From Geopsychrobacter electrodiphilus DSM 16401 (GTDB lineage: Bacteria; Desulfobacterota; Desulfuromonadia; Desulfuromonadales; Geopsychrobacteraceae), in NCBI RefSeq assembly GCF_000384395.1, contig NZ_ARWE01000001.1, forward strand, positions 2,134,894 through 2,198,893: a stretch of DNA of 64,000 nucleotides. Direction: 5' to 3'. The position numbers and the translations under genes are program-made. Positions 19,496-27,433 of this stretch are shown in pieces (position 1 is the stretch's first letter; each line of letters starts with the position of its first letter). The notes beneath the pieces were generated by a model that saw nothing but the letters and a program-made list of their open reading frames with translations, was not told where the DNA came from and did no database searches.

Positions 19496-19529
19496 GCATA
19501 CTGTATACGATCCAGAATAGCATTGTCAA
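19496..19529 (-). promoter_or_regulatory. acnB promoter with overlapping palindromic operator
   Basis: On the minus strand TTGACA (19524-19529) is followed after 15 bases by GTATACAGTATGC (19496-19508), which covers the expected -10 position. The 13-mer is identical, in inverse orientation, to the one before icd, and differs by one base from the one before mdh. Its near edge is 100 bases from the acnB start codon. Confidence 0.7.
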
Positions 19530-19621
19530 TCAATTGCCGGGCACTATTCCGGGCAAGATATCGATAACGTTTTACGAAATAGAGTTACACAAGTACTTAG
19601 TATTATTAGCTTATAGTTTAG

Positions 19622-19636
19622 TGACATATTGTGTCA
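19622..19636. repeat. Inverted repeat TGACA-N5-TGTCA
   Basis: TGACA-TATTG-TGTCA has the same half-sites and spacing as the element at 5686-5700 upstream of pilA. It may be a transcription factor site. It is about 90 bases upstream of the acnB -35 box and 60 bases upstream of the small ORF at 19696. Confidence 0.35.
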
Positions 19637-19695
19637 TTCCAAGCTTATAGAGTTACAGCAACAAAGAAAATATGCTGATTAGGAACGAGGAATCA

Positions 19696-19809
19696 ATGTT
19701 CGAAATACTCATGATAGTCTGCCTGATATTTCTCCCCTTAAGTCAACTCTTACCCCTGGGCCCCCAGACAAAAAAAGGGTCCGCACCAAAGTGCAGACCC
19801 TCAAAATAA
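19696..19809 (+). CDS. Possible small hydrophobic protein (37 aa)
   Basis: The frame starts at an ATG with GAGG five bases upstream and encodes a short membrane-like helix (MFEILMIVCLIFLPLSQLLP) followed by a basic, proline-containing tail (KKGSAPKCRPSK). Its last third runs through the FKBP terminator hairpin on the opposite strand. That argues against conservation of the tail. No promoter is clear. This is only a candidate. Confidence 0.25.
   Translation: MFEILMIVCLIFLPLSQLLPLGPQTKKGSAPKCRPSK
19770..19801 (-). terminator. Terminator of the FKBP gene
   Basis: On the minus strand the arms GGGTCTGCAC and GTGCGGACCC (one G-T pair) enclose a short loop and are followed by seven T residues, 24 bases past the FKBP stop. 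Confidence 0.85.
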
Positions 19810-19824
19810 GCTTGTTATAAGTAG

Positions 19825-20508
19825 TTATTTTTTAACGACCTTAAGCAATTCAACTTCAAAAACCAATGTGCTTCCCGGTCCGATAACCGGTGGTGCCCCA
19901 CGGTCTCCATAGGCGAGTTGAGGAGGGATAACAAGTTTGAGCTTACCCCCTTCTTTCATCAACTGCAAAGCTTCAGTCCAACCCGGAATGACACCACCAA
20001 CCCGAAAAGTTGCAGGCTGGCCACGTTTGTAGGAGCTATCAAATTCCGTCCCGTCAACAAGGGTACCACGATAGTTCACCGTAACTTGATCGTCAGCTGT
20101 AGGGGTAGCGCCTTTTCCGGCAGTCAACACTTCGTATTGCAGACCGCTGGCGGTCGTTTTAACACCAGTTTTTTTAGCGTTTTCGGCGAGAAAAGCCTTT
20201 CCGGCCGCCTTGTTGCTCTCAGACGCAACGGCAGCTTTGGCTTTCTGTTTTTCTTGCATCTCTTTCTGGAAAGCAACCAGAACTTTAACCATTTCATCTT
20301 CACTCAGAAGCGCATCAGTCTTATTGTAAGTCGCAGTCAATCCTGCCGTAAGTTGACCAAGATCGAGCTTAAGGTCCTGACGCAACAGGTCACTTCCGAT
20401 ACTCATGCCGATCGCGTAACTCAATTTTGACTGTCCATCTTCAAGAGGCGCACTAAAAGCAGGTGTCGCCAGACCGATGATGAGCAGCAACAAAGCCAAA
20501 CGTTTCAT
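19825..20508 (-). CDS. FKBP-type peptidyl-prolyl isomerase (FkpA/Mip type)
   Basis: This is a periplasmic prolyl isomerase and chaperone. The start chosen is the ATG at 20508, which has AAAGG seven bases upstream. An ATG five codons earlier has none. The 227 residues comprise a signal peptide (cleaved after TPAFSA), an FKBP_N dimerisation helix region (about 25-115) and an FKBP domain (about 125-225) with GTEFDSSYKRGQP, VIPGWTEAL, IPPQLAYGDRGAPPVIGP and TLVFEVELL. It stands between terminators and is therefore monocistronic. Confidence 0.93.
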   Translation of the reverse strand: MKRLALLLLIIGLATPAFSAPLEDGQSKLSYAIGMSIGSDLLRQDLKLDLGQLTAGLTATYNKTDALLSEDEMVKVLVAFQKEMQEKQKAKAAVASESNKAAGKAFLAENAKKTGVKTTASGLQYEVLTAGKGATPTADDQVTVNYRGTLVDGTEFDSSYKRGQPATFRVGGVIPGWTEALQLMKEGGKLKLVIPPQLAYGDRGAPPVIGPGSTLVFEVELLKVVKK

Positions 20509-20535
20509 GTTTAAACCTTTCATCTTAATAAAAGT

Positions 20536-24555: not shown

Positions 24556-24653
24556 TTTCTCTCTCCTCTAGTCAGACTTAATTAGGCCTGCAGCATTTGT
24601 CAGGCACGGTTATCCCTCATCTAGCGAATAAAACCCCATATAATCTATATGCT

Positions 24654-24686
24654 GTATACAGTATACAAACGATATTTTACTGTCAA
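24654..24686 (-). promoter_or_regulatory. mdh promoter with overlapping palindromic operator
   Basis: On the minus strand TTGACA (24681-24686) is followed by 17 bases and TACTGT as the -10 box. The 13-bp palindrome GTATACTGTATAC (24654-24666) covers that -10 box. The gap from TTGACA to the palindrome is 14 bases, as for icd. The near edge is 99 bases from the start codon. Confidence 0.75.
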
Positions 24687-24785
24687 GATGCCTTTATACT
24701 TTGAAGTCATTTTAACAGAAGCAGTCATTACCAGCCTCTCACCTCTTGAAAAGAGGTCTGATTGAACATCGGATCAATCAACATG

Positions 24786-24821
24786 AAAAGGGGCGAAACT
24801 GCAACAGGTTTCGCCCCTTTT
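24786..24821 (-). terminator. Terminator of icd
   Basis: Arms of 14 bp (AAAAGGGGCGAAAC and GTTTCGCCCCTTTT) enclose an eight-base loop, 25 bases past the icd stop. The remaining bases up to mdh hold the mdh promoter and a small 7-bp inverted repeat near 24745. Confidence 0.88.
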
Positions 24822-24846
24822 CCCAACAAAAACTGTGAATTAAAAA

Positions 24847-27081
24847 TCAGTTAATAGCGTTAATAATCGCATTGAAGGTCGCGCTTGGGCGCATCGCTTT
24901 TTCGGTCATGCCAGCGTCTGGCTTGTAGTACCCGCCGATATCAACGGGGCTACCCTGAGCGGCAAGTAACTCTGCATTGATCTTGGCTTCATTCGCTTCG
25001 AGAGCTGCAGCAACATCGATGAAGCGGGCTTTAAGTTCTGCATCCTTGGTTTGAGACGCCAACGCCTTCGCCCAATATAAAGCCAGATAAAAACTGCTAC
25101 CCCGATTATCAATCTCATTCACTTTGCGCGAAGGCGCCTTGGAGTTTTCCAGGTAATCTGAAACGGCCTGATCAAGGGTATCCGCGAACAGCTGCACCCG
25201 GGCATTACCAGTCCGATTGGCTACATGTTCAAGAGCCGGCACCAGCGCGCAGTACTCACCCAAAGAATCCCAACGCAGGTGGCCCTCTTTAAGGAACTGC
25301 TCGACATGTTTAGGAGCCGAACCGCCCGCGCCGGTCTCAAACAGCCCACCTCCTTGAAGCAGAGGCACGATAGAAAGCATTCTGGCACTGGTCCCCAGTT
25401 CGAGAATCGGGAAAAGGTCAGTCAGGTAATCACGCAGCGCATTGCCGGTAACGGTAACGGTATCTAAGCCCTTTCTAGCTCTGTCACAGGCTAACTGCAT
25501 CGCTGCGTCAGGCGTCATAATACGAATGTCGAGTCCGGTCGTATCGTGGTTTTTCAGATAGGTTTCAACTTTTTTGATAAGCTGGGCGTCGTGACCGCGC
25601 TTGGAATCCAACCAGAAAACAGTCGGGACACCACTGGCCTTGGCACGCGTGACGGCCAACTTGACCCAGTCCTGAATCGGAGCGTCTTTGGTCTGACAGG
25701 AGCGAAAGACATCACCCTCTTCAACAGACTGCTCCAGCAGGGTCGCACCCGAAGCATCGACAACCTGGATTTTACCCTTGCCGGTGGCACGAAAGGTTTT
25801 GTCATGGGAACCATATTCCTCTGCCTTCTGCGCCATCAACCCGACATTGGAGACATGCCCCATGGTCGCAGGATCAAATTGACCGTGTTTCTGACAATCC
25901 TCGATGACGGTCTGATAGATAGTGGCGTAACACCGGTCAGGAATCATGGCGATGGTATCCTGCAGTTCATCCTGAAGGTTCCACATCCGACCACCATCAC
26001 GAACTACAACAGGCATCGAAGCATCGATGATGACATCATTCGGTACGTGCAGATTAGTGATCCCCTTACGGGAGTCAACCATTGCCAGAGCAGGGCGGGT
26101 TTTGTAAACCGCCATGATGTCCGCTTCAATTTCAGCTCTTTTTGCTTCTGGCAGACGCTGGATTTTTACATAAACATCCCCCAGACCGTTGCTGACATTT
26201 ACGCCCAACTCCTTGAAGGTCGCGCCATGTTTCTCGAAGACATCCTTATAATAGACGGTGACGCACTGACCGAAGATATAAGGGTCTGAGATTTTCATCA
26301 TCGTCGCCTTGAGGTGCAGAGAGAGTAGCACCCCTTCATTTTTCGCGTTTTCAATCTGCTCGGCGTAAAATTTGCGGAGTGCCTTAATGTTGATCGTCGA
26401 GGAGTCAAGAACCTCCCCTGCCTGCACGGGCATTGCTTTTTTCAATACGCTTACGCTGCCATCAGCCGCGACAAATTCATAATTAACCGTAGTCGCCTCT
26501 TTAAGAGTCACTGAAGTCTCGCTGCCGTAAAAATCATCTGCCGTCATGTGGGCCACACGAGTTTTGGATCCAGCGGGCCAGGGTTTCATCATGCGATGAG
26601 GATTTTTCTGAGCAAATTTCTTGACCGAAGCAGCGGCCCTGCGGTCGGAGTTCCCTTCCCGCAAGACAGGATTGACAGCGCTGCCCAGACATTTGGCGAA
26701 TCTGGTTTGTAGTGCCTTATCAGCCTCAGTCTTAGGTTCTTCAGGATAATCAGGGATGTCGAACCCCTTAGCCTGAAGTTCTTTAATCGCCGCCTGCAGT
26801 TGGGGGATGGAGGCGCTGACATTCGGTAACTTAATAATGTTGGCCGTTGGATCCTGTGTCAGATCACCGAGCTGGGCTAGATAGTCGGCGACTTTCTGAT
26901 TGTCATTCAACTTGTCAGGAAAGTTGGCCAGGATTCGACCAGACAGGGAGATATCTCGCGTTTCAACCGAGACTCCGGAGCCCTGAAGATACTTTTGAAC
27001 AATCGGAAGCAGGGCGTAGGTTGCCAGGGCGGGAGCTTCATCAATTTCTGACCAAATTATTGTCGATGTTTCCTTTGACAT
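24847..27081 (-). CDS. icd: Isocitrate dehydrogenase (NADP), monomeric type
   Basis: Icd catalyses oxidative decarboxylation of isocitrate to 2-oxoglutarate with NADPH formation. The 744 residues match the monomeric IDH family in length and sequence. Examples are [18 protein letters not shown]-like and [10 protein letters not shown] segments, [12 protein letters not shown], and the conserved ending in [11 protein letters not shown]. This family is unrelated in length to the dimeric enzyme of about 415 residues. It is monocistronic, between a shared-operator promoter and a strong terminator. Confidence 0.96.
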
Positions 27082-27433
27082 GTGTCTCTCCTCAAAATTG
27101 TTTCTGATATCGCCAGGGGCGGAATAAACCAGCTAAGCAATTACTTCTTTAATTCAAGCAGGTTATACCGAAGTTCAGAAGATATAATACGCTCGAACGC
27201 GGTATACAGTATGCAATATATTGAATACTGTCAAGCGAAAACAGGGCGATTTAAAGGCCCGCATCCTGCAGAAAACTACTCATTTCAACCCGACTGACCA
27301 GACACCGGACCGACACAACTTCAGGCTGATAAGGGGTTGATAATAAAGAAAGACAACAAATAAATACGGCCCGGAATGAACCACTTGAGGTAAGTTACCC
27401 TGTTCGGTAATTTTGGAATTATTAAAAGACCGG
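27082..27433. other. Intergenic region icd-LysM gene
   Basis: This 352-base gap carries the icd leader and promoter/operator. No gene or RNA is apparent between 27235 and 27433, and no clear terminator follows the LysM gene. Confidence 0.6.
27202..27234 (-). promoter_or_regulatory. icd promoter with overlapping palindromic operator
   Basis: On the minus strand TTGACA (27229-27234) is followed by 17 bases and TACTGT. The 13-mer GCATACTGTATAC (27202-27214) covers the -10. A further half-site (ATACTGTC on the plus strand, 27225-27232) overlaps the -35. The near edge is 121 bases from the start codon. Confidence 0.75.

Follow-up and report, generated by a model that had tools for sequence, protein, structure and literature searches.

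Coordinate control of tricarboxylic acid (TCA) cycle and respiratory genes is exercised by ArcA and similar regulators, but these belong to unrelated protein families and to other lineages. Two proteins of Geobacter sulfurreducens stand closer to the subject of this study, a 13-bp palindrome that precedes acnB, mdh and icd in a 64,000-nucleotide stretch of the Geopsychrobacter electrodiphilus DSM 16401 genome (contig NZ_ARWE01000001.1, positions 2,134,894 to 2,198,893; hereafter the window). The GntR-family protein GSU3370 is reported to bind the gltA promoter, and its mechanism and role are called little known (PMC10599522, citing Ueki and Lovley 2010). HgtR (GSU3364) is reported to repress gltA, nuoA and atpG (PMC7726332). 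The regulator that we link to the palindrome resembles GSU3370 in its family and in the gltA promoter, where the palindrome is exact in Geobacter sp. AOG1 and Geomobilimonas luticola; it is a putative orthologue of GSU3370, whose description, in the parts covered, gives no operator, autoregulation or regulon. With HgtR it would share central-metabolism targets, but hgtR has a different gene neighbourhood and a predicted RpoN-type promoter (PMC2725144).

Among regulators of the FCD/VanR group, partial accounts place the operators of Atu1419 (ATGTATACAT) and AlkR (ATTGTCAGACAAT) on or near -10 boxes. Both proteins share GntR membership and an FCD fold with the one discussed here, whose putative operator is a similarly short palindrome, with the 6+1+6 arrangement of bases also seen in the AlkR operator. 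They differ in serving ferulate-type or alkane catabolism, with methylenetetrahydrofolate and long-chain acyl-CoA as effectors, and a global role in the TCA cycle is not described in the sections of these reports that were covered. The solved structure of Atu1419 contains a fortuitously bound citrate, which failed to release DNA; methylenetetrahydrofolate is the effector (PMC7797058).

Here we report that the palindrome is, with high probability, the operator of a single autoregulated member of the GntR superfamily, FCD subfamily, whose binding to it is predicted. The motif, its target set, its link to the regulator and its conservation were all established by computation.

A shared palindrome in three TCA promoters

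The initial annotation had described three minus-strand transcription units of common architecture, and on rechecking the window its coordinates, letters and spacings proved exact. Palindromes of the form GYATACNGTATRC lie at 19496-19508 (GTATACAGTATGC, on the promoter of acnB), 24654-24666 (GTATACTGTATAC, before mdh) and 27202-27214 (GCATACTGTATAC, before icd), each preceded on the minus strand by a TTGACA -35 hexamer (19524-19529, 24681-24686 and 27229-27234) at a distance of 15, 14 and 14 bases, respectively. The gene names were likewise borne out by family models: acnB, encoding aconitate hydratase 2 (16856-19396, minus strand), matches TIGR00117 with 1345 bits (cut-off 1287); mdh, malate dehydrogenase (23599-24555, minus strand), TIGR01763 with 404 bits (cut-off 352); and icd, monomeric NADP-dependent isocitrate dehydrogenase (24847-27081, minus strand), TIGR00178 with 1230 bits (cut-off 950).

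With up to one mismatch, the 13-mer occurs in the window at only these three places, each on both strands, against a mean of 0.10 matches in 100 window shuffles; ATACNGTAT was observed four times where 0.26 were expected. The window holds 36 TTGACA hexamers (18 per strand), and only the three named above have the 13-mer, allowing two mismatches, in the next 30 bases. TACTGT at N17, which had been taken as the -10 box of mdh and icd, does fall within the palindrome, but TATACT at N15, also within it, fits TATAAT better (five of six letters, against three), leaving both as candidates. An ATAC-N-GTAT match upstream of kor (23504-23512), noted earlier as the one other match, reads ACATACCGTATTA over 13 bases; with three mismatches it is most likely due to chance and was set aside.

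The palindrome across the host genome

We scanned the host genome, a single 4.24 Mb contig, with the palindrome and with its reversed pattern as control. Eight exact copies were found, and none of the control. All eight lie upstream of genes: those for an SfrAB-like oxidoreductase, nuo, sdhCAB/frd, acnB, mdh, icd, a GntR/FCD regulator and the atp F0 operon. The oxidoreductase has NuoF/GltD-type and NuoG/molybdopterin-type domains and is presumably of the kind named Sfr. Of the further genes that a genome scan had been proposed to reveal, sdh/frd and the regulator's own gene are thus preceded by exact copies, while gltA and fum have one-mismatch copies in this genome and exact ones in two Geobacteraceae genomes examined.

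Allowing one mismatch raised the count to 21 places, compared with 11 for the control, so that single one-mismatch copies need other support. Of the 13 additional places, five lie close to where a likely target begins: gltA, with the copy some 310 bases ahead of it, fumarase, the atpI operon, a gene for a NapC-type cytochrome and a rubrerythrin-like gene. Another five are inside genes and three are ambiguous. Gene starts were taken from mechanical open reading frame (ORF) calls, several of them over-extended (gltA, atpI, and sfrB in genome G008). Given the 11 control places, we accept only gltA and fumarase, with some confidence, because both have exact sites in two relatives. The copy associated with the rubrerythrin-like gene lies at C1:729542, 83 bases before it, and a Geothermobacter gene that looks similar by eye has an exact copy.

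The GntR/FCD regulator and its own promoter

The regulator gene lies outside the window (C1:4060259-4060960, minus strand) and encodes a protein of 234 amino acids with an N-terminal GntR winged helix-turn-helix (PF00392, 72.3 bits, cut-off 27) and a C-terminal FCD domain (PF07729, 88.6 bits, cut-off 24.3) whose fold matches FCD structures. The best NCBIfam match, phnR_burk (TIGR03338), reached 129.8 bits, below its cut-off of 271.5. Within the order, full-length orthologues show about 64-88% identity.

Upstream of this gene the palindrome is nearly invariant. It was present in 30/30 loci from the order and, among 78 named loci (the 80 best of 291 relatives, minus two with too little upstream sequence), it was exact in 76 and within one mismatch in all, the reversed control scoring 0/78. 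The family of Geobacter sp. AOG1 gave 30/30 loci within one mismatch, 15 of them exact (30 of 37 loci); these three locus sets overlap in species. Outside the class, 10 of 15 regulator loci (from 22 genomes; proteins 46-54% identical) have the palindrome within one mismatch, three exactly. In 67 of the 78 named loci a TTGACA (up to one mismatch) is found 6 bases ahead of the palindrome, and in at least 68 AAT follows the palindrome directly, so that the operator would occupy the whole spacer and extend into the TACAAT -10 box of the regulator gene.

A structural model of the protein (mean pLDDT 88) matches FCD regulators including Atu1419 and PmiR of Pseudomonas aeruginosa; the latter (7xp0, 7xp1) is the best solved relative by sequence (E 4.6e-28, about 31% identical) and the third by fold. 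PmiR is described as a sensor of 2-methylisocitrate, with propionate genes as its targets. In the model of the effector domain the wing is followed by seven helix segments, including a short one, a number that bears on membership of the VanR group. In metal-binding FCD regulators the ligands are an Asp/Asn and three His. Candidate ligands here are H139, which is invariant, and H135 and H183, each at least 90% conserved; in the alignment with PmiR a His occupies the Asp/Asn position and the last His is not conserved, so the metal site looks altered, judging from sequence.

In the host, a potassium-channel gene (TrkA-N and TrkA-C domains; L028, 6116-7129) diverges from the regulator gene across the shared palindrome. 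Of the eight relatives that have a site at gntR, six show the same divergent arrangement, and the channel gene may therefore be a further target. Both subunits, large and small, of an uptake-type [NiFe] hydrogenase are encoded some 1.8 kb from the regulator gene (positions 609-3431 of stretch L028, which spans C1:4055000-4073000). Genome G077 has a 61% identical paralogue of the regulator (L071, 2968-3675) beside nickel/cobalt transport- and hydrogenase maturation-like genes, and the 6.6 kb of that stretch contain no palindrome copy within one mismatch.

Conservation of the predicted regulon

We collected exact sites in ten relatives: Geobacter sp. AOG1, Geomobilimonas luticola, Malonomonas rubra, Geothermobacter hydrogeniphilus, Desulfuromusa kysingii and five further genomes. 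By manual count, 62 of 75 precede acnB, icd, mdh, sdhC, gltA, fumA, nuoA, sfrB, atpF' or gntR; among them one sfrB site lies within an ORF that was called too long, and a pair of atp sites that overlap is counted twice. The motif is thus not found equally often inside genes or before unrelated ones, the outcome that had been set down as refuting a shared operator. Of the other 13 sites, five precede glyQ, three cytochrome-like genes and three genes that appear ferritin- or rubrerythrin-like, with two left unassigned. The glyQ sites, before the glycyl-tRNA synthetase alpha gene in five of the ten relatives (L232, L170, L177, L182, L174), follow directly on a promoter of the TTGACA-N17-TAGAAT type in some; the gene was named by a family model in one of the five, and in G029 by eye. 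The multihaem cytochrome-like genes occur in two Geobacteraceae genomes and Malonomonas rubra (L204, L227, L198), CxxCH motifs being visible in two and the third named from its similar start.

Conservation at icd orthologues was sampled in 30 of 91 matching genomes, the window's own included; one was dropped because its start was not found. The site is exact in 22 of the remaining 29 loci, with TTGACA 14-15 bases before it in 21 of those 22. Six of the seven misses belong to one genus-level group, and the seventh lies on a contig with only 104 bases upstream.

The number of motif copies follows the presence of the regulator. The 118 genomes sampled from the order contain 706 copies of the palindrome and 18 of the control. 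All 92 with an orthologue have 3-11 copies, while 19 of the 26 without one have none and five have at least three (Fisher, nominal P 7e-19); this division counts G029 and G048, whose best hits are 31% and 36% identical, as lacking an orthologue, which changed 94/118 to 92 with and 26 without. In the Geobacter sp. AOG1 family, at least three copies are found in 37/37 genomes with the orthologue and 2/11 without (3e-8); in the rest of the phylum sample, the figures are 10/22 (orthologues at E up to 1e-40) and 3/121 (2e-7). The 14 genomes of family f4 lack both regulator and monomeric icd, and 11 of them have zero copies, the others 1-3. In the three f2/g9 genomes and in three of the four that belong to f7, icd has been kept while orthologue and motif are both absent; the remaining f7 genome is without icd, orthologue and motif alike. 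This pattern suggests a dependence of the motif on the regulator rather than the enzyme.

Position of the site relative to the promoter

The offset between site and promoter differs between genes and is nearly fixed within a gene. The palindrome is kept in all nine acnB loci examined, each with TTGACA or TTGACG 14-16 bases before it, and in all three mdh loci, each with TTGACA 14 bases before it. At sfrB, sdhC and glyQ the site is located, by inspection, just after the likely -10. For nuoA (9 of 11 genomes) and the host gltA, the palindrome ends 10-12 bases upstream of a -35-like TTGAC; in two Geobacteraceae genomes the nuoA and gltA sites have no -35-like box after them.

We propose that a dimer of the GntR/FCD protein binds GTATAC-N-GTATAC and would be expected to cover GTATACNGTATAC. 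The site falls within or upon a sigma-70-type promoter at acnB, icd, mdh (with kor) and the gene of the regulator itself, so that bound protein would keep RNA polymerase out and repress; at sfrB, sdhC and glyQ, where it is just downstream of the likely -10, exclusion of polymerase would again give repression, and the positions in both groups fit such a mode. Direct blocking of polymerase at the -10 box, as suggested in the initial annotation, would fit acnB, icd and mdh, but it is not supported as the general mode, since the nuoA and host gltA sites end upstream of the -35. Those two may be activated or more mildly repressed. One signal, probably a central carboxylate, would then tie together the oxidative TCA cycle, complex I, the SfrAB-like oxidoreductase and ATP synthase; the composition of the regulon, together with the FCD relatives, leads us to guess at a carboxylate of the cycle as the natural ligand.

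Alternative explanations

The core of what was put forward when the window was first read, a shared TCA operator bound by a GntR-like regulator, is supported by the sites at the genes proposed for checking, among them the regulator's own, and repression upon binding is predicted. That reading had also named an HgtR-like protein as a candidate. It is very unlikely that the site belongs to HgtR, the hydrogen-dependent repressor of G. sulfurreducens, with the GntR gene merely a target. The reported HgtR targets do overlap with those found here (gltA, nuoA, atpG; PMC7726332), but GSU3364 has an enhancer-binding-protein gene upstream and a predicted RpoN-dependent promoter (PMC2725144), whereas the GntR gene, in the five Geobacteraceae loci inspected, has a TTGACA promoter, lies between a potassium-channel gene and a selA-like gene, and shows no enhancer-binding-protein neighbour among ORFs read by eye. 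On this comparison of gene neighbourhoods we rejected HgtR as the most likely binder, though it may act as a co-regulator; motif number, too, tracks the GntR orthologue. Some other, unrelated regulator could bind the site and keep the GntR gene as a conserved target, as G008, G029 and G126, with 4-6 copies and only distant GntR relatives, might suggest. We regard this as highly improbable, the site before the GntR gene being the most constant of all and autoregulation being usual in the GntR family.

That the same protein and operator act mainly by activation is unlikely. The nuoA and host gltA sites, which end ahead of the -35, favour it somewhat, but in nearly every genome examined the palindrome covers the promoter of acnB, icd, mdh and the regulator gene, and at sfrB, sdhC and glyQ it follows the likely -10. 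We give hardly any credence to the palindrome as a promoter element or DNA structure, for example an unusual -10, rather than an operator. Several promoters do have the palindrome across their -10 region, and TATAC forms part of it, but its offset varies between genes while being nearly fixed within each, and the f2/g9 and f7 genomes that keep icd without the orthologue have no copies.

Several observations weigh against a single GntR/FCD-operated regulon of repressed genes. The upstream nuoA and gltA sites misfit plain repression. Among the 22 genomes outside the class that have an orthologue, 12 carry fewer than three copies, and five of the 15 regulator genes have no palindrome within 230 bases, although a differently anchored scan found a one-mismatch copy for one of these five. 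In six f18 genomes icd has no site. Seven genomes have at least three copies without a close orthologue: G008, G029, G126 and G160 (3-6 copies), and the incomplete G117, G082 and G087 (3-4 copies; G087 from the first orthologue search only). G008 is rated 100% complete and has five copies, and the GntR relatives in G008, G029 and G126 are at most 48% identical over short stretches; in such genomes the regulator has possibly been lost, split or replaced. Finally, the p-values above are overstated, because related genomes were treated as independent. G251, of the same phylum, has eight copies, the regulator being absent at E 1e-40.

Organization of the mdh-kor region

On the minus strand downstream of mdh lie a ferredoxin-like ORF (23144-23392; start codon uncertain), called korD-like by eye from two CxxCxxC-type cysteine motifs, and genes for 2-oxoacid:ferredoxin oxidoreductase (kor) alpha-like (21993-23123, PF01855), beta-like (21175-21990, PF02775) and gamma-like (20601-21152, an ORF call named by reading) subunits. 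Terminator-like stems, which are pattern matches only, were found on the minus strand between icd and mdh (24785-24822), after the kor genes (20542-20565) and after acnB (16801-16835); the region has 18 such matches, against 12.4 in shuffles. As the ferredoxin-like ORF fills the mdh-kor gap and terminator-like stems bracket the unit, the kor genes probably share the mdh transcript, and the mdh site probably controls the 2-oxoacid oxidoreductase as well.

Relation to previous work and significance

A literature search of titles and abstract starts, a coverage that did not extend to Ueki and Lovley 2010, returned no description of this regulon among the matches listed, and a search for the motif strings gave no Geobacter paper among the matches by title. 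As far as the literature was searched, the present analysis contributes the operator and its autoregulatory use, a wider regulon and the extent to which all this is conserved; part of it may already be known from Ueki and Lovley 2010.

Geobacter and its relatives live by oxidizing acetate through exactly the genes identified here. A regulator with a precisely defined putative operator, for which some dozen target operons are predicted, makes the control of this acetate-oxidizing metabolism testable. More tentatively, and with clear doubt, we suggest that oxidative energy metabolism in the phylum may be under an ancient two-way switch, a single GntR/FCD protein that senses a tricarboxylate. It would repress TCA enzymes and its own gene from sites on the promoter and tune complex I and citrate synthase from sites ahead of the -35. 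A single metabolite pool would thereby govern the TCA cycle, the respiratory chain and ATP synthase, along with glycyl-tRNA synthetase in some lineages. The regulon also suggests a role for the GSU3370-type protein, which, in the sources available in part, is so far described only as a gltA promoter binder. With the same palindrome before the TCA, respiratory chain, ATP synthase and GntR genes, the GntR protein, through its predicted binding, is the likely common switch.

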